From: Candidatus Omnitrophota bacterium
Lineage (GTDB): Bacteria > Omnitrophota > Gorgyraeia > Zapsychrales > Fredricksoniimonadaceae
NCBI GenBank assembly: GCA_030650275.1
Contig: JAUSEK010000005.1
Location: 1 to 39,306 of the forward strand
Length of the DNA: 39,306 nucleotides
Direction: 5' to 3'
Shown here: piece by piece, positions 22,504 to 39,306 of the stretch
How the letters are laid out: every line of letters starts with the position of its first letter
How positions within the stretch are numbered: position 1 is the stretch's first letter
Notes under the pieces: model-generated
Databases searched by the model: none
Told to the model about the DNA's origin: nothing
The model's input: only the letters and a program-made list of their open reading frames with translations
Position numbers and translations under genes: made by a program

Positions 22504-22543
22504 CGGGACGTAGCGCAGTTGGCTAGCGCACTTGAATGGGGTT
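22504..22543 (+). pseudogene. 5' half of tRNA-Pro (GGG), interrupted at the mobile-element junction
   Basis: The sequence follows a bacterial tRNA-Pro exactly up to the anticodon: acceptor strand CGGGACG, TA, D arm GCGC-AGTTGGCTA-GCGC, A26, anticodon stem CTTGA, loop ATGGGGT (anticodon GGG at 22538-22540). The partner strand should read TCAAG, but after one T it becomes GCCTTTGAG, and no T arm or acceptor 3' strand follows. The tRNA is thus broken at about position 39, where element-type DNA begins. This is a probable left attachment site. The 3' half, or a restored tRNA, is expected at the other end of the element beyond the window. Confidence 0.7.
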
Positions 22544-22721: not shown

Positions 22722-23132
22722 ATGGTTAAAAATTTTATAAATAGCATAGTCCAAAGGCAGTTTAATCAAGCGAGCATGGCCCTTTTATGGGTAGAATCAT
22801 TCATATTTTCAGCCATTTATGGGGCAATGTTTCATTCATGGCCGGTGTTTGGCATCCTCTTTTTAGGTTTGGCCGCGCTTATGAGCAGGTCCACAACTGT
22901 GGTTTATGCGATTTTTGTTCTAAGTTTTCTATGGAGTTTTGTCTTTGCCAGTATTGGTTATGGCATTGGCGGAGCGGCCGGGGCGGTGATATTGGGAGGG
23001 ATAGTTTTCCTCAATGGAGTAAAGCTTCATTTCCGCGATCTAAAATCTTCCTGGGATGATGCGGGTTTTGCTGGGTATGCCAATGCTGAGTGGAGGCAAA
23101 ATTGGCATGGCGGACAGCAGAATTTAAATTAA
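22722..23132 (+). CDS. Small membrane protein of unknown function
   Basis: A 136-residue protein that I do not recognise. Hydrophobic stretches cover about residues 19-105 (MALLWVESFIFSAIYGAMF, VFGILFLGLAALM, VVYAIFVLSFLWSFVFASIGYGIGGAAGAVILGGIVFL), giving three or four membrane helices with short loops. The last 30 residues are polar and Trp/Asn/Gly-rich. A good AAGGAG site (AAGGAGAGG) precedes ATG 22722. It is the first gene inside the mobile element, facing right, and stands alone. Confidence 0.6.
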   Translation: MVKNFINSIVQRQFNQASMALLWVESFIFSAIYGAMFHSWPVFGILFLGLAALMSRSTTVVYAIFVLSFLWSFVFASIGYGIGGAAGAVILGGIVFLNGVKLHFRDLKSSWDDAGFAGYANAEWRQNWHGGQQNLN

Positions 23133-24735: not shown

Positions 24736-24866
24736 TAACTCTCCCATTCGCAAGAGGTTTTTGGGCAAAAGCGGCCCAAAACCGTTCAAGACCCCACACA
24801 CTCTACCATAAGTTTTTATGAGTGAGTGGGGTCTTGAACTACCAATTGAGAATGGGAGAGAGTTAA
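24736..24866. repeat. Nested inverted repeats with two inner hairpins
   Basis: The outer arms are TAACTCTCCCATTC (24736-24749) and GAATGGGAGAGAGTTA (24851-24866), with 2 nt inserted in the right arm. Inside is hairpin A, GGTTTTTGGGC (24756-24766) with GCCCAAAACC (24774-24783), and hairpin B, a perfect 14-bp stem GTTCAAGACCCCAC (24784-24797) with GTGGGGTCTTGAAC (24826-24839), which extends by CACTC/GAGTG after one mismatch. A three-way-junction RNA or single-stranded DNA structure would result. Confidence 0.75.
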
Positions 24867-25005
24867 TATTTATATAGGAGGGGGTAGTGGTGTAGTTGTG
24901 TGTGGTGGTAGGGTGATATGGGTTTTATGAGTTTATGGGTTGTGTAGTTGTGTTGGTTGTATTAGGGTTTTTTGAATTGTTTGGTTGTTTGGGTTGTTTG
25001 GTTGA
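24844..25005 (+). other. C-free G/T-rich tract
   Basis: For 162 consecutive nt the plus strand has no C (the minus strand has no G), in a region whose surroundings use all four bases. The tract is rich in GGT, GTT and GGG runs (for example GGAGGGGGTAGTGGTG) and ends at the C of position 25006. Such asymmetry can give G-quadruplexes or R-loops, or mark a site kept single-stranded during replication or transfer. Confidence 0.85.
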
Positions 25006-25126
25006 CGTAGATCTTTTTGCCAGACGTTTTAATCGAATTCACAGGTGATTTATCTCTGGTGCGATGGGGTTTTGCTTCGCATTGGTCAAAAGAATAAAGC
25101 CGCCGTTTTCGTACGTTCCCGCCACA

Positions 25127-25269
25127 TCCTTTCGATTCTTTTTCTTTGATTATGTCATACGTGTCAAGGACTACGCCCCGCAAGAAACAGCGGGGCTTGC
25201 AAGTGCTCCGCTGCGGCTCCGCATCCTTGACACGCATGACTTTATAGTAATCAAAAACAATCGAAAGGA
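25127..25269 (+). promoter_or_regulatory. Long interrupted palindrome, leader copy A
   Basis: The outer arms are TCCTTTCGATT (25127-25137) and AATCGAAAGGA (25259-25269), exact. The middle arms are GTCATACGTGTCAAGGA (25154-25170) and TCCTTGACACGCATGAC (25224-25240), 16 of 17 matching. The inner hairpin is GCCCCGC/GCGGGGC (25175-25196), followed by CTTGCAAG and a second GC-rich hairpin. The AAAGGA at the right end is the ribosome binding site of the gene at 25278, so the folded form would hide it. The right arm contains TTGACA (25227-25232) with TATAGT only 10 nt further on. Confidence 0.75.
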
Positions 25270-25277
25270 AGCCCGCC

Positions 25278-25757
25278 ATGCATATCACAGCCAATGCACA
25301 AATGACCAAATTGAGCACCGAAGAACTCGAGAAATACCTTGATTCAAGGTATGAGGCAGAGGCTCACCAGGCGGAATTGGACGCTTTGGAAACGGAATAT
25401 GCCCAAAGAGTCAGCGAAGACGATCTGAACATGACCGAAGATGAGCCCAACATGTCGGAGGAAATAGGTCCCAATGGAGGGAACCTTGAGCTGGGCTTAA
25501 TTGAAATGTACCGCAGATATTTACAGCCGCAAGGTCAGCGCGATGGGCTCATGGATAATGAAGACATTATTGGAAATATAAGGGCAAATTTAAAAGACGC
25601 CGGGTTTAAGTCCGGCGGATTGAAGAAGGTATCGGACAAGGAAGCCTTGGCCGCCGCGAAAGACCTTTATGAACACAGGAAAGATCTAATAAGCAGATAT
25701 AAGTCCAAGAACAAGCTTTCAAACATACCAGGCAATCTTCGGGGGATCCTTAGATGA
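25278..25757 (+). CDS. Acidic hypothetical protein in the leading region
   Basis: A 159-residue soluble protein that I do not recognise. Residues 8-60 are strongly acidic and helical (TEELEKYLDSRYEAEAHQAE, then EDDLNMTEDEPNMSEE). The C-terminal part is basic (EHRKDLISRYKSKNKLSNIP). The charge pattern resembles some DNA-mimic or single-strand-handling accessory proteins, but there is no family match to claim. ATG 25278 has AAAGGA 9 nt upstream, inside the right arm of palindrome A. It shares its leader type with the genes at 26065 and 26696 (ardA), so it is probably expressed together with the antirestriction gene. Confidence 0.6.
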   Translation: MHITANAQMTKLSTEELEKYLDSRYEAEAHQAELDALETEYAQRVSEDDLNMTEDEPNMSEEIGPNGGNLELGLIEMYRRYLQPQGQRDGLMDNEDIIGNIRANLKDAGFKSGGLKKVSDKEALAAAKDLYEHRKDLISRYKSKNKLSNIPGNLRGILR

Positions 25758-26064
25758 TACAGCCGTTGGATGCTTCCCACCGGCTGGTCCTGGGGTTTCT
25801 GGCTGGCTGATTTGAAATAAATAAAGGCCTTTGTGGAATGGCTCACATCTCCTTTTTGTTGTAAAAACCTGCCCTGTAACAGATTCACCCTTTGCTTGCT
25901 CGCCTCCATTTTATCCAAAAAATTATTGTATCAAGGGCTTCGCAAGGGCCGCTGGGGTGCCTGCGGCCCCCTTGACACAAAAAGTTTTTTGGATGTTCGG
26001 CTCACCAAAGCAGCAAAGGGCGAAACTGTTAAGGTCAAACAACCAGCAAAAAGGAGATGAGGAA
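25758..26064 (+). other. Intergenic leader region before the DUF6573-like gene
   Basis: This 307-nt gap holds a weak CAGCCG/CGGCTG dyad after the preceding stop, an AT-rich stretch and palindrome copy B (25913-25994). After that comes a 70-nt spacer ending in AAGGAG. No additional gene is supported. The frame is open through part of the gap, but the only convincing start is at 26065. Confidence 0.5.
25913..25994 (+). promoter_or_regulatory. Long interrupted palindrome, leader copy B
   Basis: The outer arms ATCCAAAAAA (25913-25922) and TTTTTTGGAT (25985-25994) are exact. The inner arms are TCAAGGG (25931-25937) and CCCTTGA (25969-25975), followed by GGGCCGC (25946-25952) and GCGGCCC (25963-25969). 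The CAAGG/CCTTGACAC core and GCAAG segment are shared with copies A and C, but the outer arms differ. It is therefore the same architecture with compensating sequence change, and the start codon lies 70 nt downstream. Confidence 0.7.
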
Positions 26065-26463
26065 ATGAGCCCAACCCAAAAGATTAGTTCAAATCAGCCA
26101 AACAGCCAGGAGGAGTTTTATGGACAGCCGGTGTTCGAGTACACCAGCGATCAGGCGGTCGTAGATGGGATTCTGTTCGATATGACCCAGCTGAATCCCG
26201 CTTGGAAGAAAGGACTGTTCAATTATGTGACAGTCAATCTTTTGAATCGCGGGTACATGTACCAGGATAAGATCAGTATTCCCAACCTGCTTGACCTATT
26301 GAACCAGGCCAATCAGATTGTCCGCAGGGAAACCAAGGGTTTCGCGGTATTTGACTCCTTCTTTGATGGTTCCGTAGAGCTGCCCAATGGGGACCAGCAG
26401 AAGATTTTCATCTGTTGGAATGAAGCTGGGAAATTCACGATCATGCTGCCGGAAGATTATTAG
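26065..26463 (+). CDS. DUF6573-like mobile-element protein
   Basis: A 132-residue protein. Residues 20-60 (GQPVFEYTSDQAVVDGILFD and onward) resemble the start of the DUF6573 family found on plasmids and ICEs (v-y-x-Y-T-r-x-x-A-i-x-D-G-v-L-x-D-v-T). The rest (FNYVTVNLLNRGYM, NGDQQKIFICWNEAGKFTIM) is consistent with a small alpha/beta fold. Its biochemical role is unknown. ATG 26065 is preceded by a strong AAGGAG site. It lies between two palindromic leaders in the presumed leading region and ends in a good terminator. Confidence 0.6.
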   Translation: MSPTQKISSNQPNSQEEFYGQPVFEYTSDQAVVDGILFDMTQLNPAWKKGLFNYVTVNLLNRGYMYQDKISIPNLLDLLNQANQIVRRETKGFAVFDSFFDGSVELPNGDQQKIFICWNEAGKFTIMLPEDY

Positions 26464-26477
26464 TCCGCATCACCATT

Positions 26478-26506
26478 GCCCGCTGGCGACAGCGGGCATT
26501 TTTTTT
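26478..26506 (+). terminator. Rho-independent terminator after the DUF6573-like gene
   Basis: A 7-bp GC-rich stem, GCCCGCT (26478-26484) and AGCGGGC (26491-26497), with a 6-nt loop, is followed by A and eight T residues. It separates this gene from palindrome C, so ardA must have its own promoter downstream. Confidence 0.85.
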
Positions 26507-26550
26507 GGTCGTTCCTTTTAAAAGCACCGGTTACGTGCGCTTCCGCCATT

Positions 26551-26686
26551 CTTTCGATTTAGGTCTTTTGATTGTGTCATACGTGTCAAGGACGACACCC
26601 CACGAAAAGCAGTGGGGCTTGCAAGTGCTCCGCTGCGACTCCGCATCCTTGACACGTATGCCTTTTACAATCAAAAAAATCGAAAG
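26551..26686 (+). promoter_or_regulatory. Long interrupted palindrome, leader copy C (before ardA)
   Basis: Nested arms, outside in: CTTTCGATT (26551-26559) with AATCGAAAG (26678-26686); TTTTGATTGT (26566-26575) with ACAATCAAAA (26667-26676); GTCATACGTGTCAAGGA (26576-26592) with TCCTTGACACGTATGCC (26646-26662, 16 of 17). The centre is GC-rich, with CCCCAC/GTGGGG and CTTGCAAG. The sequence is nearly the same as copy A over most of its length. The AAAGGGG ribosome binding site of ardA overlaps the right arm. Because a terminator lies just upstream, a promoter must lie within or very near this element. TTGACA and TACAAT are present, but only 11 nt apart. Confidence 0.75.
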
Positions 26687-26695
26687 GGGCGCGTC

Positions 26696-27214
26696 ATGCA
26701 AAACACACAAACAACACCAAGGATCTATGTTGCCTGTTTAGCCGCTTACAATAACGGCATTTTACACGGGCAATGGATTGAGGCCAATCAGGAGGCGGGG
26801 GATATCCAAGCTGAAATTCAGGATATGCTGGCCCAAAGCCCTATGCCTAAGGCAGAGGAGTGGGCTATTCATGATTATGAGGGTTTCTGCGGCTTACGGT
26901 TATCTGAATATGAAGACATGGCCAAGGTTGCGGCAATGGCTGTTTTGATCGAAGAACATGGGGAGGCCTGGGCCCGGTATGCCGATCATGTAGGGATGGA
27001 TGATGCCACTGGGGATGGGTTTAAAGAAGCGTATCATGGCCAATGGGATTCGGAAGAGGATTTTGCCGAACACTTGGCCGAGGAAACGATGGAAATCCCC
27101 GAACGTCTGCAATATTACATTGATTATAAGAAACTGGCCCGTGATCTGTTCATTGATGAGTATTTTTCAGCGGAAAGGGAGGGCTGTAAAGTTTACGTCT
27201 TCAGCCGGCATTAA
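26696..27214 (+). CDS. ardA: Antirestriction protein ArdA
   Basis: ArdA is an acidic DNA-mimic protein that blocks type I restriction-modification enzymes when conjugative DNA enters a new cell. The product has 172 residues. The family N-terminus RIYVACLAAYNNGILHGQWI is clear, followed by EWAIHDYEGFCGL (the antirestriction-type acidic segment), EHGEAWARYADHVG, FKEAYHGQWDSEEDFAEHLA and YIDYKKLARDLFIDEYF near the C-terminus. The protein is strongly acidic overall. ATG 26696 follows AAAGGGG. The frame is open upstream through the palindrome, but that segment is the DNA repeat, not protein. It marks this region as the leading region of a conjugative element. Confidence 0.93.
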   Translation: MQNTQTTPRIYVACLAAYNNGILHGQWIEANQEAGDIQAEIQDMLAQSPMPKAEEWAIHDYEGFCGLRLSEYEDMAKVAAMAVLIEEHGEAWARYADHVGMDDATGDGFKEAYHGQWDSEEDFAEHLAEETMEIPERLQYYIDYKKLARDLFIDEYFSAEREGCKVYVFSRH

Positions 27215-28524: not shown

Positions 28525-31500
28525 ATGCCTATAATCGACAACAATTCACAGACAATGCATACAGCACTCATCAACGCGCTTACAGGTGCTGAAAAGGTTG
28601 ATATAGAAGTAGCTTTTTTTTACTTCTCAGGGTGGAGGCTTCTCGCAAGCCACTTAAAGAACAAGAAAATTAGAATACTTGTTGGAAAATATATTGATCC
28701 AGAAGCTGTACCTGAACTTCTATCTAAAATCAAACAAGAGGGTTCAGATGTTGATCTTGAACCATTTCAACCAAGGAAAACAATTTCTTCTCGTGTTGCT
28801 AAAAAGCAAACCTATGTAAGAAGTTTTACAAGGTTGAGTAATGAATCAGCATTGCTAGATGATAGTGATGACCAGGATGCTTACAAAATTCTGGAGGATA
28901 AGATTGCTGATGGATCTTTGGAAATTAAACTGACGGACAGGCAAGAGCACGGCAAAATGTACATTATTCATAACAAGCTTGAATCCAGCCAAAATGGCGA
29001 TTACCCCGGAACTGTTTTTATGGGATCAAGCAATTTCACTTTTCAAGGATTGCTTAATCAAGGGGAACTAAACGAGCGTTACGGTGACAAAGAACACTAT
29101 GTAATGTATTTGAATAAATTTGAAAGCCTTTGGATTGATAGCAAGAATATCGACATAGCCACACTAGAAAATAAGGACGATCTTTTAAAGCAATTTAAAG
29201 ATGAATTGTGGATTCACGCAACGCCCAGTCCCTATGCGGTCTATATCCGCGTACTTCATGAGCTATTTGGGAAGGAGAACCCTGAAAGTGCAAAAACTCC
29301 AAGTCAAATCACAAAGGATAAGTATTTCGATTTAGAATATCAAATTGACGCAATTAAGTCAGTATTAGACAAACTTGAAAAATACGATGGGGTGATTTTG
29401 GCTGATGTTGTTGGTCTTGGAAAAAGTATTATTGCCTCAGCTGCGGCATACAATAGTGGATTAAAAGCTATTATTATTGCGCCACCACACTTACGAGAAC
29501 AATGGGAAGATTATCAAGAAGAATTCCGACTCCCTGGCGCTAGAGTTTTTAGTTCTGGGGCTGTAGATGATATCTATAAGAAATACAACAATAATAATGC
29601 GCCACTTTTGATTATTGTAGATGAAGCGCATCGCTATAGAAATGAAGATACTGATGATTATCGCATGCTTCATCATATTTGTAATAGTCATCCGGACAAC
29701 AAAGTCGTACTTCTTACTGCTACGCCTTTCAACAATGATCCCAAAGATGTCTTTGCATTAATTAAACTTTTCCAAATTCCAGGACAATCTACCATCCGCT
29801 CAGTAGACAATTTGAGTCTGCGCTTTAGAGAGCTTATTCAGAGATATAAAAAACTTAATCGTGATAGAAGAAGCGGAAAGGCAGATCAAACACATATAGA
29901 TAAAGAGGCGGATGAAATTTCTCTTGAACTAAGAAGGTTAATTGAGAATGTAATTATTCGTAGATCCAGGTTAGATTTGAGGACAATAACAAGATACAAA
30001 GAAGACCTTGAAAAACAAAACATAGACTTTGCTGAGGTTAAGGGCCCGAAACTTTTAACATACGATCTTGGAAATCTTTCGGATCTATATTTTGATACCT
30101 TGTTCAAAATCACGAAGACAGAAGAAGAGGGCGGGGGTTTTATAGGTGCCCGTTACAAGCCCGCAGAATATATTCTAGACAGAGAAGAATTCTTGAAAGT
30201 TTATGGCAAATATTTGGATGAGACAGATCTCAAAACTGCACAAACTAACTTGGCTAAATTCATGAAGAGATTATTAGTGATGCGGTTTGAAAGTTCAAAG
30301 GAAGCTTTTCGCTCAACCCTCGGAAATATGATTGCTTCTACCAAAATGGTTGAAGACTGGTGGAATAAATTGGGCAAGGTGCCAATTATGAAGAAGGGAC
30401 AAATCCCTGACCCGGATACAATCCTTTCTACTTCTGATGACGATGTTGACGAGGAGGTAAATCAGCAGATTGCTGAAACAGAACTTCAAAAACTCAAAGA
30501 CTCAAAAGGATTGATAGCTGTAGATAAGTCACTCATTGATCCGAAATTTATTGATGATGTCACAAAAGATAGAAAATTACTTACGCAAATACAGGAAGAT
30601 TGGTTTGGGCCCAATACAGTGTTGATTAAGGATTTGGATCCCAAGCTTGATAAAGTTAAGGAGCATATTGACTCACTTTTATTGGAAAAACCAGACAGAA
30701 AAATAGTAGTTTTCTCATCGTATGCGGATACCATTAATTATTTATTTAAAGAGCTTTCAAAGCGGGGCTTAAAACGTGTTCTTAAATATACCGCAGCCGA
30801 TGCAAGTAAAGCTATGAAAAAGACAGTTCGCGCCAACTTTGATGCTGGCCTAAATGAAACAGAACAAGAAAATGATTATGATGTGCTTGTCACCACAGAT
30901 GCATTAAGTGAAGGTTATAACTTACATCGAGCTGGAGTCGTAATTAATTATGACATTCCGTATAACCCGACCCGCGTGATCCAAAGAATTGGTCGTATAA
31001 ATCGTATCAATAAAAAAGTATTTGATAATCTGTATATTTATAACTTCTTTCCGACAGACATAGGAGAATCAGAAATAAGGATCCATCAAATTTCAACTCT
31101 TAAAATGCGCTTGATTAATTCGGTTGTGGGCAGTGATACTCAAACACTCACTGATGACGAAAAACTACAAAGTTTCTTTATAGACGAATATCAAAAAGCT
31201 GAAGGTAAAAACGAAGCACTTTCTTGGGACGCAGTACACCACGAGGCTTATGATCAAGCCAGAAAAGATAAGGTAGCTTTTGAGGAAGCCCTCAAGATTA
31301 AACCAAGAAGTCGTGTTATTAGAGATGGACAAAAAGTACCCGCGATTGTGGCGTTCGGGAAAAAGGGAGAGCATGCAGTCTTTGTTTTGAAAGAGTCAGA
31401 GATTCCGTTTATTGTGGCGGCAGAGATGGCGTTGAAGTATTTTAAAGCCACTAAAGATGATAAAGGTAAGGAAGCAGACAAGCAATATGATGAGGTATTT

Positions 31501-31836
31501 AAGTTGGTCCGGGATATTTTGTTTGAAAAGCATCCGCTACCTTCTATTAGTGGTAGACGAGCAGAATCTTTAAGGATAATAAAAGTAATAGAAGAAGGTT
31601 GCCCAAAAGCCAAAGACTATTGTCATGATCTAGCACAAATAATTAAGAAGTATGATGGTATTAATGAAGGCGATCTGAAATCAATCGCTCAGCTTACAGT
31701 TACAAATTTTGAGAAATCTTTTGCAGAATTGAAGGGAATAGTTCCGCAGCACCAAATAGATTCTATTAACGAACGAGCCTCACGGCTCGAAGGTGAGTAC
31801 GAGACCATTGTGCTTAGTGAAGATATTAGATTATGA
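28525..31836 (+). CDS. PLD-nuclease/SNF2-type helicase fusion
   Basis: A 1103-residue protein. Residues about 1-210 form a phospholipase-D-like domain with HGKMYIIHNK (His142-x-Lys144) and GSSNFTFQG (167-175), the single HKD motif of PLD nucleases. A superfamily-2, SNF2-like helicase follows: Gln273 region, Walker A VVGLGKS (295-301), DEAH (366-369), TAT (398-400), a long insert, then RecA2 with KIVVFSSYADT, TDALSEGYNLH and the arginine-finger motif QRIGRINR near residue 820. A helical C-terminal region of about 250 residues ends the protein. The stop overlaps the methyltransferase start, so the two are coupled. As a pair they look like a restriction or DISARM/BREX-related defence module, with the PLD domain as the probable nuclease. 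Confidence 0.85.
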   Translation: MPIIDNNSQTMHTALINALTGAEKVDIEVAFFYFSGWRLLASHLKNKKIRILVGKYIDPEAVPELLSKIKQEGSDVDLEPFQPRKTISSRVAKKQTYVRSFTRLSNESALLDDSDDQDAYKILEDKIADGSLEIKLTDRQEHGKMYIIHNKLESSQNGDYPGTVFMGSSNFTFQGLLNQGELNERYGDKEHYVMYLNKFESLWIDSKNIDIATLENKDDLLKQFKDELWIHATPSPYAVYIRVLHELFGKENPESAKTPSQITKDKYFDLEYQIDAIKSVLDKLEKYDGVILADVVGLGKSIIASAAAYNSGLKAIIIAPPHLREQWEDYQEEFRLPGARVFSSGAVDDIYKKYNNNNAPLLIIVDEAHRYRNEDTDDYRMLHHICNSHPDNKVVLLTATPFNNDPKDVFALIKLFQIPGQSTIRSVDNLSLRFRELIQRYKKLNRDRRSGKADQTHIDKEADEISLELRRLIENVIIRRSRLDLRTITRYKEDLEKQNIDFAEVKGPKLLTYDLGNLSDLYFDTLFKITKTEEEGGGFIGARYKPAEYILDREEFLKVYGKYLDETDLKTAQTNLAKFMKRLLVMRFESSKEAFRSTLGNMIASTKMVEDWWNKLGKVPIMKKGQIPDPDTILSTSDDDVDEEVNQQIAETELQKLKDSKGLIAVDKSLIDPKFIDDVTKDRKLLTQIQEDWFGPNTVLIKDLDPKLDKVKEHIDSLLLEKPDRKIVVFSSYADTINYLFKELSKRGLKRVLKYTAADASKAMKKTVRANFDAGLNETEQENDYDVLVTTDALSEGYNLHRAGVVINYDIPYNPTRVIQRIGRINRINKKVFDNLYIYNFFPTDIGESEIRIHQISTLKMRLINSVVGSDTQTLTDDEKLQSFFIDEYQKAEGKNEALSWDAVHHEAYDQARKDKVAFEEALKIKPRSRVIRDGQKVPAIVAFGKKGEHAVFVLKESEIPFIVAAEMALKYFKATKDDKGKEADKQYDEVFKLVRDILFEKHPLPSISGRRAESLRIIKVIEEGCPKAKDYCHDLAQIIKKYDGINEGDLKSIAQLTVTNFEKSFAELKGIVPQHQIDSINERASRLEGEYETIVLSEDIRL

Positions 31837-34800
31837 ATCTGGAACGAAAATATAACAGGGATGATTTTCTAGCATTTTTAAAGTCTTTTATTCCAGAATT
31901 TACAAAAGATGTTAGGCGCGTTGGCACTAGCGGATTACAAGTAACAAAAGAAACATTTTATCTTGGGGAAAGTGCAAAGTTCAATCTGTCTATATTTGAG
32001 TTAATCCATTCGTCATCTGCTGATGCTCGCGTAGCTTTGGCTATGGACGGCTTCAAGGTAATGAAGAGTAGCGCTACATACCGGGCACTAGTGATCTATC
32101 GAGCCGATAAGGGAGAAGATTGGCGGTTGTCTTTAATGACAGCCACTCCCGGTGTTAATGCAGAAGGAAAAGTAGAGCAAGTCCTCTCAAATCCACGCAG
32201 ATTTTCTTTTTTTTTGGGTCCCAACGCTCAAATTAATACGCCGTATCAATTTCTTATTGAACAAGGCCAGGTAAAAGATTTCGATGATTTAAAAAGCCGC
32301 TTTTCAATCGAGGTGGTAAATAAGAACTTCTATACGCAAATCGCGGTTCTTTTTACTCAATTGGCTGGGGGGAAACGTATAATTGGCCGAAAGTCAATTG
32401 ATGCTGGTAGGGGTCTTTTGAACTTGCCCTCTACTGTCGATGATACTTTGGATAAAGAATTTACGGTTCGGCTCATTGGTCGACTTGTATTTTGTTGGTT
32501 TCTAAAGAAAAAACGGTCGGACAAAAATATCGCTCTTTTGCCAGAAGAGCTTCTTTCAGTGAAAGCAGTCTCAAGAAATAGAGATTATTACCATGGTATT
32601 TTGGAACCCTTGTTTTTTGAGGTGCTTAATACTTCTGTGGTGAATCGTGAAAAGAAATATCAAGGATCGCTTTGGTCGCAAATACCTTTTTTAAATGGTG
32701 GTCTTTTTACTCCACATCATCATGATTTTTATGAGCTGGGACCTCTGCGGATTTCAAAGTATATAAATACGCTTAAGGTTCCCGATCATTGGATAAAAGA
32801 GTTATTCGAAATTCTTGAAACATATAACTTTACTATTGATGAGAACACATCCATTGATGTTGAGCTTTCCATCGAGCCTGAAATGCTTGGCCGTATCTTT
32901 GAAAATTTACTTGCTGAAATCAATCCTGAAACTGGAGAGACTGCGCGTAAGGCGACCGGCAGCTTCTATACCCCAAGGCCGATTGTGGAGCATATGGTCG
33001 ATGAAAGTTTAAATCAATACCTACTCACAAAGACTAAGTTAGATGAGAGTAAGATTAAAAGTCTTCTAAGTTATGAAAGTTTTGAAGTAAAACTTACCGA
33101 ATCAGAGAAAGAATCTGTTCTCGGGGCTCTTGACGTTGTTAAGGTTATTGATCCTGCCTGCGGAAGTGGCGCTTTCCCAATGGGGATACTTCAAAAGATA
33201 CTACTCATTCTCCAGAAACTAGATCCGGAATCTGAATGGTGGCTTGAAAGAAAGCTTTCTCAAATCGAGAGCAAATTACTCAGACAAGAACTTGGGAGAA
33301 AATTGAAATCCCAAAATGTTAATTATGTTCATAAACTTGGGATTATTCAAAGTTCGATTTATGGTGTGGATATCCAGCCGATTGCTGTTGAGATTTCAAA
33401 GTTGAGGTTTTTTCTGTCGCTTATAGTGGATGAAAAAGTAAGTGATACGAAAGAAAATCGTGGTGTTGAGCCATTGCCAAATCTTGAATTTAAATTTATG
33501 TGTACCAATAGTTTAATAGGTTTGCCAAAAAAGGAAAAGAATTCAGATGAGCTTTTTGAAGCGGAGGATACTCAATCTATCAGTGAGCTTAAAGACCTCC
33601 GGGATGAATATCTGCGAAGTTACGGGGTTGAGAAAGAAAAAATACAAATAAAATTTTTAAAAACACAAAGAAAAATGGCAGAATTTTATTGGCAAAGTAT
33701 ATTAAGGCCACAAATCGATCTTTGGGGGAATCAAAAGGAAATTAAGAAGCAGGATGTACCTGAATTTACACGCATGTTGAGTAATTGGGACCCGTTTTCA
33801 GATAAACCGGCCGGCTGGTTTGATCCAGAATGGATGTTTGGGATAAAAGATGGGTTTGATATTGTGATCGGGAATCCACCGTATGGTATTTTGAATAAGA
33901 AACAAAATAAGACCGAAAGTATTATTGTTTCGGAAGAAGAATTAGAGTTCTTTAAGAATAGTAGTTATTATGAGCCTGCTTCAGGAGGAATGATAAATAT
34001 TTTTAGGCTTTTTATACTAAGAAGTATTTATCTTCTTTCAAAGAACGGGATATTTTCAGAAATATTTCCGTTAGCATTTATTGGTGACTTAAGCATTGGA
34101 AGATTAAGAAAATACATTCTAGACCATTACGAAATTCTTTCTATTGAAGCATTTCCCGAAAGAGATAATTCAAATAAAAGAGTTTTTGAGGCGGTAAAAA
34201 TGTCAGTTTGTATTTTGAATTTACGAAATTCAAAAACAAAATCAGATGCCCCATTCTTTATTAGAATTAATACGGATAGATATATAGATGAAAAAGCGGA
34301 GAAGAATTATTTAACAAAGAAAATCGTAGATTTGATTGATAAAGAAAACACTACTTTCCCTTTGACAACTTTAAAAGAGACAAATCTTTTAGTAAAAATA
34401 TTTTCTAATAGCATTCGTTTTTCACAGATAGGTAAATGTAATACCGGAGAAGTAGATATGACATTTTGTAAAGACTGTTTTTCGAATAATCCAAATAATG
34501 CCAGGCTTTTAAAAGGCGCAATAATTGATAGGTACCAACTACGAACAAAAATGAGCCAAGGAGAGATAGTATTTATTGATGAGAAAAAGTTATTTGCTTT
34601 GAAAAGGAACTTATCAAATGACTTTAAAGTTCAAGAACGAATAGTTTTGCAAGGTATAACTGGAGTTAATGAATCATCCAGACTAAAAATGATGATAATT
34701 AAGGATGCCTATTGTGCCAATTCTCTGAATTATTTAACACTAAACAAAGATTTAGATAAAAAATATCTGCTCGGCATATTTAATAGCAAACTGCTTAATT

Positions 34801-35222
34801 TTGTTTTCTCTAAGTTCAGCACAAATAGCAATGTTAACGGGTATGAAATCGATAATGCTCCAGTAATTATTGATGATGCCTTCATTGAACCAATTAGCAA
34901 ATTGGTGAGTTTTATTATATTAAATAATCATGTAGGGATTCATAGTTTAGGGGGAGCATCATTCTTTTTTGAACGACTTATAGATGCTATGGTTTATGAA
35001 CTTTATCTCTCAGACGAAATCAAAGCTGCTAATTGCGAAATTCTGCAGTATCTTGGTAATCTGCAAGAGCTGAAAGACGACTGGAGTGATGGGGAGAAGC
35101 TCGCAGCTATTGAGAAAGTGTATAAAAAATTCTTCGATTTGCTGCACCCGGTAAGTGCTGCCATGGCAAAAATGCAAGGAATTCCGGAGGTGAGAATTAT
35201 TGAGGGGAGAGGTAAGGATTAA
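31833..35222 (+). CDS. Eco57I/type IIG-like adenine DNA methyltransferase
   Basis: A 1129-residue N6-adenine methyltransferase. The SAM motif I is VIDPACGSGAFPMGIL (Asp at 440), preceded by the entry motif ATGSFYTPRPIVEHMV (about 371-386). The catalytic motif IV is IVIGNPPYGIL (Asn681-Pro-Pro-Tyr). The N-terminal 350 residues are a domain found in large Eco57I/PglX-like enzymes (FFLGPNAQINTPYQFLIEQG), in which I see no nuclease motif. The C-terminal 400 residues fit a target-recognition region with coiled spacers. ATG 31833 overlaps the helicase stop by 4 nt. It would mark self DNA while the PLD-helicase attacks unmarked DNA. Confidence 0.88.
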   Translation: MNLERKYNRDDFLAFLKSFIPEFTKDVRRVGTSGLQVTKETFYLGESAKFNLSIFELIHSSSADARVALAMDGFKVMKSSATYRALVIYRADKGEDWRLSLMTATPGVNAEGKVEQVLSNPRRFSFFLGPNAQINTPYQFLIEQGQVKDFDDLKSRFSIEVVNKNFYTQIAVLFTQLAGGKRIIGRKSIDAGRGLLNLPSTVDDTLDKEFTVRLIGRLVFCWFLKKKRSDKNIALLPEELLSVKAVSRNRDYYHGILEPLFFEVLNTSVVNREKKYQGSLWSQIPFLNGGLFTPHHHDFYELGPLRISKYINTLKVPDHWIKELFEILETYNFTIDENTSIDVELSIEPEMLGRIFENLLAEINPETGETARKATGSFYTPRPIVEHMVDESLNQYLLTKTKLDESKIKSLLSYESFEVKLTESEKESVLGALDVVKVIDPACGSGAFPMGILQKILLILQKLDPESEWWLERKLSQIESKLLRQELGRKLKSQNVNYVHKLGIIQSSIYGVDIQPIAVEISKLRFFLSLIVDEKVSDTKENRGVEPLPNLEFKFMCTNSLIGLPKKEKNSDELFEAEDTQSISELKDLRDEYLRSYGVEKEKIQIKFLKTQRKMAEFYWQSILRPQIDLWGNQKEIKKQDVPEFTRMLSNWDPFSDKPAGWFDPEWMFGIKDGFDIVIGNPPYGILNKKQNKTESIIVSEEELEFFKNSSYYEPASGGMINIFRLFILRSIYLLSKNGIFSEIFPLAFIGDLSIGRLRKYILDHYEILSIEAFPERDNSNKRVFEAVKMSVCILNLRNSKTKSDAPFFIRINTDRYIDEKAEKNYLTKKIVDLIDKENTTFPLTTLKETNLLVKIFSNSIRFSQIGKCNTGEVDMTFCKDCFSNNPNNARLLKGAIIDRYQLRTKMSQGEIVFIDEKKLFALKRNLSNDFKVQERIVLQGITGVNESSRLKMMIIKDAYCANSLNYLTLNKDLDKKYLLGIFNSKLLNFVFSKFSTNSNVNGYEIDNAPVIIDDAFIEPISKLVSFIILNNHVGIHSLGGASFFFERLIDAMVYELYLSDEIKAANCEILQYLGNLQELKDDWSDGEKLAAIEKVYKKFFDLLHPVSAAMAKMQGIPEVRIIEGRGKD

Positions 35223-37050: not shown

Positions 37051-37140
37051 AGAAGTGATTTGATTAATTTTGTAACATACAATAAGGTCATGAAGCCTGG
37101 ATACTGACAGAGATTCAATTTGAAATTTAGTATTTCGTAA

Positions 37141-37162
37141 AAGTCAATATTTAGATTGACTT
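37141..37162. promoter_or_regulatory. Operator-like inverted repeat upstream of the transfer genes
   Basis: AAGTCAAT (37141-37148) and ATTGACTT (37155-37162) are exact 8-bp inverted arms with a 6-bp spacer, 17 nt before the -35 box of the transfer-gene promoter. The size and place suit a dimeric regulator that controls transfer. Confidence 0.5.
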
Positions 37163-37179
37163 ATCATCAAAAATAATTG

Positions 37180-37207
37180 TTGACAAGAATTTTGATTCTG
37201 GTAATAT
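37180..37207 (+). promoter_or_regulatory. Promoter of the conjugation-gene cluster
   Basis: A perfect TTGACA (37180-37185), a 16-bp spacer and TAATAT (37202-37207) lie 175 nt upstream of the first transfer-region gene. The remainder of the 331-nt gap 37051-37381 is AT-rich up to this promoter, then of more normal composition. It holds no confident gene. Confidence 0.6.
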
Positions 37208-37381
37208 CATCCTCAGAAATTGATAACCATCAATTTCCCATCGTTCCCCGCGGTGGAAGTAAAAAGTAGTTCAAACCCCCGGTAGTCCGTTCTTCCATAG
37301 TTTCTTAACGCTTGGTCAATTTCTTTTCCCAAATGAAGAGGTTGAACTTGCAAGATGCGTTTTTTGTGAAGGAGGCCGCGC

Positions 37382-38158
37382 GTGCGTGCCATTCCGCCAA
37401 AAATCCAAATCTTGAAGTTCGTATGGGAACAGGGGATTGTCACCGTTGACGATGTAACCCGCCATTTATTCCAGCCCGATAAGTTCCGTGCTGTTCGTAT
37501 CGCCCTGCATAAGCTCGGAGTCGCGCACATTAAATACCCTGGCATTAAGCACGGTATTTGGTTTATTGACAAGCCCGAATTGTACGACCTTTTAAGCTGT
37601 TATTTCCCTGATATACCCTCATTTGAAGCCCGCCTTGTCCCTGTTATTCAATTCCTGCATTATTTGGAAATCAATCGTATCCGCACAGCAATACAAAACT
37701 CCGGCCAGATCATCATTGATGAATGGTGGTCCGAGAACCATATCCGTGCCTTGGATCCTGCCTGGCGCAGCAGAGCAGGCAATTCAATAATACCTGACGC
37801 CATCTTTTGGCGAAAACGCCCGGATGGGACCCGCCAGCAATTCTTTCTTGAGTACGAACGTACTTTAAAGAATAGGGAACGCTACACAGATATTTTTTGT
37901 TACTACGCCAAGCGGGAGGGGGTACAAAACCGCAATGTTATTTATATTTGCCAAACGCCTTACATCAGACAGGCACTCGTATCTATTGAAGCGCGGCTGG
38001 CCAAGGTGGGCAAGCTGGAAGGGACAGGTCTGTATTTCCAATTTGTTACTTTGGAGAGTTTCTATAAAACCTACGGCGATCAACCTACAAATAAGGAGAT
38101 ATTACCATGCGCACCGTCAAACAATGGTTCAAGGCCCCTGGCTGTAAATGTTTCTTGA
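37382..38158 (+). CDS. Replication-relaxation family protein
   Basis: A 258-residue protein resembling the replication-relaxation family (PF13814), associated with conjugative plasmids and ICEs. The N-terminal winged-helix part (PPKIQILKFVWEQGIVTVDD and onward, FRAVRIALHKLG) is followed by a region with IPDAIFWRK and FLEYERTLKNRERYTDIFCYY, where the conserved E-x-x-R/K-x-x-x-x-R-Y pattern sits. GTG 37382 is preceded by GGAGG, 6 nt away. Its last 52 nt overlap the pilin gene in another frame. It probably regulates plasmid or ICE DNA handling; the exact biochemical role is unknown. Confidence 0.72.
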   Translation: MRAIPPKIQILKFVWEQGIVTVDDVTRHLFQPDKFRAVRIALHKLGVAHIKYPGIKHGIWFIDKPELYDLLSCYFPDIPSFEARLVPVIQFLHYLEINRIRTAIQNSGQIIIDEWWSENHIRALDPAWRSRAGNSIIPDAIFWRKRPDGTRQQFFLEYERTLKNRERYTDIFCYYAKREGVQNRNVIYICQTPYIRQALVSIEARLAKVGKLEGTGLYFQFVTLESFYKTYGDQPTNKEILPCAPSNNGSRPLAVNVS

Positions 38159-38403
38159 TGTTTGTATTTTTTGTATTTTTGATGTGCCAACCGGCTTTTG
38201 CCGATCTGGTCAGCGGCATGGATGAATTACAAAGCAAGGTCAAAAGCATATGCCAGCCGCTGGCGATCATCTTCCTTATTATAGCGGGCTGGCAAAAGGC
38301 AATGGGGAACAGCCAGTTATTCGTGGCCGCCTTGATCGGCACGGTCATTATGTTTGCTTCACCCCAGATCGTTGATTTTGTCAGCGCATCATTCGGGAGA
38401 TAG
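38107..38403 (+). CDS. VirB2/TrbC-like conjugative pilin
   Basis: A 98-residue product with a long signal peptide (CFLMFVFFVFLMCQPAFA, cut before DLVSG), a short polar stretch and two hydrophobic helices (PLAIIFLIIAGWQKAM and LFVAALIGTVIMFASPQIVDF). This is the plan of VirB2/TrbC pilins of type IV secretion systems. The AAGGAG site precedes ATG 38107. It is followed after 3 nt by the VirB3-VirB4-like gene, the standard order of a conjugation operon. Confidence 0.85.
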   Translation: MRTVKQWFKAPGCKCFLMFVFFVFLMCQPAFADLVSGMDELQSKVKSICQPLAIIFLIIAGWQKAMGNSQLFVAALIGTVIMFASPQIVDFVSASFGR

Positions 38404-38406
38404 TTT

Positions 38407-39306
38407 ATGCGTCTTTACTCGGAAAAGTGTTTAAGGAATCTTCAGGACAGGATGATCGTCTTTGGCTTTGAAGGGTGGGATATCTTTATGGTTTTGGGGG
38501 CCGCTCTGATCCTGCAGATCGTCAAGGTTAACAGCCTTGTCATTTGGGGCATTTGCGGGGTCATGAGCGGTTTCCTTATTTTGGTCAAAAGGGGCAAGCC
38601 GGCCAATGCAAGCGAGCATTACATGGACTGGTTCTTTAAGGACAAGCGGTTTACCGCCTTCCCGCAGGCCTTTGCCCACAATATCCGTGGCCGTGAGCTA
38701 GATTTGAGGCTCAACGGCCTGCAGGAGATCCTGCCTTATAGCCATTTTGAGGACGGTTTTCTGGTTTTTAAGGATGATTCCCTGTCTGTCGGGTATGCCA
38801 TCACCTGTCCCAGCCTTGACAATCTGTCCTCGGATGAACTGATCGGCTATTCTCAAAAAATTGAAACCTTTCTTAACGGTTTAAGCGATAGAGCGACCTA
38901 CCAGGTGTTCTTCACCCTGGATAGCGATTATCACAAGGAGATTGACGAGCATAAGGTAATCAAAACCAATCATCCTTTGATCAAGACCATGCACGCTCAA
39001 CGTATTGAACGCTTTGAGGCGTTAACCAAAGAAAGACTTTTTAGACGCCGACAGTGTTATTTGTTGGTTAATTTCGCGCAAGTCCACCTGGGCGGGAGGC
39101 CCAGACCGTTTAATTTCTTTGGCAGTATAAAGAAATTAACCGCCGCCCAGGTGGATGAAACGAAAAAGGATTTCCGGCTGGTGCTTAATAATATAGAGGA
39201 AGGCATAAACGGCGCGGGGTTAGGGTGTAAGCCGATGGATGACTACGGGCTTATGTGCTTAATGTACAAATACCTTAACCCCGACCGTTTAAAAGAAGGC
39301 ATTGAA
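38407..39306 (+). CDS. VirB3-VirB4-like T4SS ATPase, N-terminal part (cut by window end)
   Basis: The frame is open from ATG 38407 to the window end (300 codons). Residues 10-65 have a VirB3-like membrane hairpin (IFMVLGAALILQIV and LVIWGICGVMSGFLILV). The following region (LPYSHFEDGFLVFKDDSLSV, then GYAITCP, YSQKIETFLNGLSDRATYQV, RLFRRRQCYLLVNF) matches the N-terminal domain of VirB4/TraC ATPases. The Walker motifs would lie beyond the window. A fused VirB3-VirB4 powers pilus assembly and substrate export. It confirms that the region is conjugative. Confidence 0.82.
   Translation, partial: MRLYSEKCLRNLQDRMIVFGFEGWDIFMVLGAALILQIVKVNSLVIWGICGVMSGFLILVKRGKPANASEHYMDWFFKDKRFTAFPQAFAHNIRGRELDLRLNGLQEILPYSHFEDGFLVFKDDSLSVGYAITCPSLDNLSSDELIGYSQKIETFLNGLSDRATYQVFFTLDSDYHKEIDEHKVIKTNHPLIKTMHAQRIERFEALTKERLFRRRQCYLLVNFAQVHLGGRPRPFNFFGSIKKLTAAQVDETKKDFRLVLNNIEEGINGAGLGCKPMDDYGLMCLMYKYLNPDRLKEGIE

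Follow-up and report, generated by a model that had tools for sequence, protein, structure and literature searches.

Palindromic leaders of ardA and other genes in Omnitrophota conjugative elements as candidate promoters of single-stranded DNA

Why do three small genes of a Candidatus Omnitrophota genome, ardA among them, each start directly behind a long imperfect palindrome? The window analysed here (39,306 nucleotides) is the first part of a 115,879-base contig. The original prediction read its three palindromes as candidate early-transfer promoters, which would act on the incoming single strand. From sequence analysis we suggest that they are probably a variant of the Frpo type, unrelated to it in sequence, that is, promoters that exist in single-stranded DNA only.

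Three palindromes in a conjugative element

Palindrome A (25127–25269, plus strand) consists of an outer arm predicted to mask the Shine-Dalgarno (SD) site, an AT stem, a bulge, the CATACGTGTCAAGG/CCTTGACACGCATG stem and inner hairpins. Palindrome C (26550–26687, plus strand) is its direct repeat with 85% identity over 119 nt (blastn gives 85% over nearly the full length), in agreement with the near-identity of the two noted before. The parts that all three copies were expected to share, namely the CAAGG/CCTTGAC(AC) arms, the GCAAG segment and the inner hairpin, are present. Palindrome B (25846–26059, plus strand) keeps the expected architecture but not the expected extent: 25913–25994 is its core, and nested arms pair around it at 25846–25861/26044–26059, with weaker ones out to 25799/26105. 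The outer arm of B also pairs with the SD site.

The places of the palindromes are confirmed by folding, with energies far outside those of shuffled sequences. As single-stranded DNA, A folds with −39.0 kcal/mol (z −8.5), the core of B with −25.8 kcal/mol (z −6.8) and C with −38.8 kcal/mol (z −8.9), and 0 of 200 dinucleotide shuffles are as good in each case. The extended 321-nt stretch of B reaches −78.9 (z −10.5). In a 150-nt scan all three copies are within the top six folds of the whole window, where a three-way junction (24736–24865) ranks first.

One small gene lies directly behind each copy, as predicted. The gene behind A (25278–25757, plus strand) encodes 159 aa with no assigned function and has a 53% homologue in the distant Omnitrophota genome G082, likewise behind a long palindrome. 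That leader is a different nested palindrome (z −6.5), which is missed by both of our covariance models. The gene behind B (26065–26463, plus strand; 132 aa) has no assigned function either, and no homologue of it was found in 16 related genomes. Behind C lies ardA (26696–27214, plus strand), which encodes an anti-restriction protein (PF07275, E 2.5e-41).

The tRNA-Pro repeat, the tyrosine recombinase and the type IV secretion operon place the palindromes in a complete integrative conjugative element (ICE) of ~27.7 kb, inserted in tRNA-Pro. Its left attachment site (22504–22543, plus strand) is the 40-nt 5′ part of tRNA-Pro(GGG), and the second copy of this sequence is contained in the intact tRNA-Pro(GGG) at contig position 50198–50274, adjoined by the recombinase gene (contig 49008–50207). 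The type IV secretion genes start in the window with VirB2/TrbC and VirB4 (38107–39306, plus strand), and the operon runs on to contig position 47585, encoding VirB2, VirB4, TraE, CagX/VirB9-like, TrbI and TraD/TraG proteins. VirB2 is preceded by a protein that resembles MobC-family replication-relaxation proteins (37382–38158, plus strand), a candidate relaxase that matches NF041423 at 2.7e-9, below the curated cut-off; the same gene order is kept in relatives. No HUH relaxase (PF03432) was found in any of the 8 genomes searched for it. The cargo includes an ImmA/IrrE–DUF4411 pair and, at 28525–35222, a PLD-helicase with a type IIG-like methylase, a candidate defence cargo that is close to DISARM class 1 without being equal to it.

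Relatives across the phylum and covariation of the arms

Searching Omnitrophota genomes with covariance models and for ardA gave 14 copies in total: 8 before ardA, 1 before radC and 1 with spoVG. Blastn with copy C against 384 genomes of the phylum returned four more palindromes and chance matches; the short matches L012, L013 and L015–L019 were rejected, as the palindrome is absent there. When ardA was sought with PF07275 in the 384 genomes, the palindrome stood directly upstream in 6/6 cases, and two further ardA genes have it at the same place, in G237 (cut by the contig end) and at locus L039. Two covariance models added a copy before a small gene in G135 and three copies in one element of G159, of which one precedes ardA, one precedes radC and the third has spoVG 60 nt downstream. 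The contig of G159 also carries genes for a relaxase C-terminal domain, VirD4, an S26 peptidase, a NikA-like protein, ArdA, Fic, RadC, a ParB-like protein and SpoVG. The gene of the third G159 copy is displaced and that of the G127 copy is broken.

The covariance models match in 8 of the 384 genomes, and on inspection every match proved to be a palindrome in mobile-element surroundings. The number of candidates scored per genome was limited and the filters were strict, so absence elsewhere is no proof. A de novo scan of the left arms of related ICEs gave strong sense matches only at the known palindromes and at one other place, in G245, and no antisense matches, and the stretches examined of G311, G289, G298 and G114 contain no copy. 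Without exception the 14 copies belong to conjugative-type elements or to what remains of such elements, with no scattered ones, as the reading of early-transfer promoters implies. The expectation that matches lie upstream of ardA, ssb or psiB-like genes in one orientation holds for ardA and extends to radC, spoVG and small genes; neither ssb nor psiB was seen behind the copies.

The copies fall into two arm families, CATACGTGTCAAGG and CCACCTAGTCAAGGG, with one common layout. When 13 arms are aligned, both partners have changed in 11 of the 37 pairs, a number that 0 of 500 shuffles reach, and sliding the arm partners by one to three columns abolishes the signal. In the first family alone both-side changes occur in 9 of 48 pairs. 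We note that the 14 copies are not independent, as they comprise the two main families plus B and G135b. These compensatory changes support the earlier view that the fold is the selected trait. On these changes and the confinement of the matches to mobile elements, we reject scattered repeats or chance palindromes as the reading. Origin from phages was rejected as well: two arm patterns searched against viral contigs gave 0 matches and 4 chance matches without a stem.

In other phyla the same architecture before ardA is not enriched, with 9 sense against 11 antisense cases among 71 loci. The ardA leaders fold better in cellular genomes than in phages, whose ardA genes have no such hairpins. 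Outside Omnitrophota, many ardA genes (alphaproteobacterial L045, L068, L069, L094 and others) have other long hairpin leaders that pair with the SD site, for example with CCTTCCG/CGGAAGG arms.

The proposed promoter signal and the ribosome site

All 14 copies have an extended −10 element, TGN[TC]ANAAT, in the complement of the 5′ arm, and 13 of them agree in its position. In the window it is found on the minus strand as TGACATAAT at 25149–25157 (A), TGATACAAT at 25925–25933 (B) and TGACACAAT at 26571–26579 (C). The 3′ arm has it in 0/14 copies and carries a longer T-rich segment instead. As long as the DNA is double-stranded, the element is directed away from the gene; it comes to lie opposite the gene's template arm only when the lower strand is folded. 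The upstream neighbour of nearly all copies is a co-directional gene or none, hence there is nothing for a leftward double-strand promoter to drive. TTGAC, a perfect −35 core, is present in all 14 palindromes, 6–7 nt from the −10 hexamer rather than 16–17, about one helical turn too near; the count along the template arm gives roughly 13–17. A strand test by G.U against A.C pairs (5 vs 7) is uninformative. The double-strand promoter of the ICE before mobC reads TTGACA-16-TAATAT with TGG or TGA upstream, which indicates that a −10 of such type is used in the lineage.

Each of the 14 copies has a purine-rich, SD-like stretch at or within the outer arm; in the third G159 copy it serves no gene. 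By prediction, with an assumed start site, the mean accessibility of the SD site is ~0.16 in read-through RNA and ~0.56 in RNA begun inside the 3′ arm. The site is predicted to be more exposed in the latter RNA in 13 of 14 copies, the exception being G127, where the gene is broken and the change goes in the opposite direction. The outer arm would thus hide the SD site of read-through RNA.

Hence, we suggest the following course of events. In the course of conjugative transfer or afterwards, the ICE would have its lower (minus) strand single-stranded, and the palindrome would fold. The complement of the 5′ arm would then serve as the non-template strand, with the extended −10 opposite a non-complementary, longer template arm, so that the stem would offer a ready-made bulge at the −10. 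We infer that the RNA polymerase of the host recognizes this structure, initiates at the −10 and exits the stem into ardA or another entry gene, presumably in the recipient and prior to second-strand synthesis. A newly arrived element could thus arm itself at once. In double-stranded DNA the same −10 would be oriented away from the gene, and read-through RNA, carrying both arms, would fold over the SD site, thus keeping the gene silent in the resident element. The early-transfer promoter that was originally predicted stands in part: confinement to elements, orientation, covariation and the strand-specific −10 speak for it, while the lack of ssb and psiB, the abnormal −35 spacing and, in the window ICE, the side on which the candidate oriT lies do not.

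Polarity, alternatives and known systems

The three-way-junction stem (24736–24865, plus strand) is directly followed by a C-poor tract (24844–25012, plus strand), 169 nt with at most one C. The same junction lies directly before mobC in G135, G158, G289, G195 and G298 and ~1 kb off in G114; in G082 it is partial and 1.2 kb from mobC. With the C-poor tract after it in several relatives, the recurring junction is a candidate oriT or single-strand origin of this MobC-type ICE family of Omnitrophota. A junction with a CTCAACCA-like apical loop and a C-poor tract is conserved at 24736–25012 of the window, L039:7394–7686 and L031:10975–11262, as well as ahead of mobC in G135, G158, G289, G195, G298 and G114. 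We also observe that a small membrane-like protein, phrog_15014 (22722–23132), has a homologue at the matching place ahead of the junction in L039.

Palindromes and mobC have the same orientation on the same contig in 6/6 ICEs. In G135, G158 and G195 the order is palindrome, gene, cargo, junction, mobC, whereas in the window ICE, G269 and L039 it is junction, palindrome, ardA, cargo, mobC. The predicted location in the leading region thus agrees with the first three, where the candidate oriT is on the same side as in F, but not with the other three, where it is on the opposite side. In the latter three the candidate oriT adjoins the palindromes on their left, and the palindromes would be the last to enter if the minus strand were transferred. 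Transfer of the plus strand, with the junction as oriT, would provide no template for the genes behind the palindromes. The strand-specific −10 speaks for the minus strand as the transferred one.

Could the palindromes instead be single-strand origins (sso/ssi), at which hairpin-started RNA mainly primes the second strand and gene expression is a by-product or absent? The −10 evidence fits this equally, the palindromes are near the candidate oriT in the window ICE and two relatives, where primers of the complementary strand would be useful, and Frpo of the F type does both (PMC4595007). We nevertheless consider it unlikely that this is their main role, since there is one copy per gene, always just before the start codon and with the SD site in the arm, and three copies in one element exceed the need of an origin. 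Moreover, the palindromes match no Rfam family, and the known sso motif CS-6, TAGCGW, occurs in 2 of 14 copies only. Like the RNA polymerase-primed sso of rolling-circle plasmids and ICEBs1, they would be strand-specific folds of single-stranded DNA near a transfer origin with promoter-like elements; unlike these, they are multi-copy and each is tied to a gene start. As single-strand promoters, they may additionally prime the second strand.

The pairing of the outer arm with the SD site in all copies, for which B and the G082 leader use sequences of their own, would equally be expected of RNA leaders, in which the structure of the mRNA hides the site and a signal or partner is needed to open it. 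This reading leaves the extended −10 of 14/14 copies, restricted to the antisense strand, unexplained; by eye there is no convincing rightward double-strand promoter in or before the palindromes, and the lack of an Rfam match also counts against it, which makes it quite unlikely. A control site in double-stranded DNA, either a leftward −10 making antisense RNA or a palindromic operator, with the genes off in the resident element, is in our view very improbable. In such DNA the −10 would be valid as a promoter to the left, and a leftward gene does lie upstream of the second G159 copy. However, leftward RNA would mostly cross unrelated co-directional genes, and an operator needs no covarying stems that span 40–100 nt.

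The single-strand promoter is best compared with Frpo (ssi) of F and ColIb-P9, where a long imperfect palindrome likewise precedes entry genes (ssb, psiB and anti-restriction genes). In the anti-restriction leaders of F and ColIb the complement of the 5′ arm, with CCCTTGCAT...CTAAGATGG, also has a −10-like element, TAAGAT, near a CCCTTGC apex and opposite a mismatched template arm; the mismatch at the −10 is 3 nt long, and the other arm is bulged. The F and ColIb genes point toward oriT and the relaxase, as in G135, G158 and G195, while the oriT of the window ICE is probably on the opposite side of the palindromes. A ParB-like gene lies between ssb and psiB in F and ColIb, and the G159 contig encodes a ParB-like protein too. 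The Omnitrophota palindromes are smaller (80–215 nt vs ~220–330 nt) and differ in the extended −10 with TTGAC only 6–7 nt away, in the SD site inside the outer arm and in belonging to MobC-type ICEs. As anticipated, blastn gives no convincing sequence match to the leading regions of F and ColIb. The virion RNA polymerase of phage N4 also uses DNA-hairpin promoters, which are short and served by the phage's own polymerase; the hairpins described here are long and have a −10 of the sigma-70 type. In the main published leading-region survey (PMC11541004), the search covered known Frpo/ssi sequences plus candidates from four islands. Among open-access papers we found none on such elements in Omnitrophota.

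The chances are about even that the palindromes form an independently evolved second class of single-strand promoters, namely double-lock extended −10 hairpins before anti-restriction and other entry genes in conjugative elements throughout an entire uncultured phylum, with arm swaps that keep the fold. The double lock, part of this evenly balanced reading, would be the wrong-way promoter in double-stranded DNA together with the hidden ribosome site in read-through RNA. If so, expression from single-stranded DNA triggered by entry would be a general strategy of conjugative elements, arisen outside Proteobacteria with its own promoter architecture, and the strand-specific −10 would give a sequence rule for finding such promoters in elements without F-like sequence. 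It becomes testable whether a bubbled extended −10 suffices for transcription of single-stranded DNA and how the donor keeps the genes silent.

Several minor features lie around mobC. Its promoter is flanked by two small inverted repeats at 37140–37240, AAGTCAAT/ATTGACTT and GAAATTGAT/ATCAATTTC, which could be an operator or relaxase sites. The 8-nt palindrome CTTGCAAG lies within the inner loop of both A (25196) and C (26618) and recurs at 37347, just ahead of mobC; the 116-kb contig has only four copies in total, and the palindrome is found just ahead of mobC in G269 as well. Three relatives (L219:10345–12488, L245 and L243) have, before the junction and mobC, a gene pair that is absent from the window ICE, encoding a protein of ~285–318 aa and one of ~415 aa with PAS domains and a region-4-like HTH, possibly an element-borne regulator.
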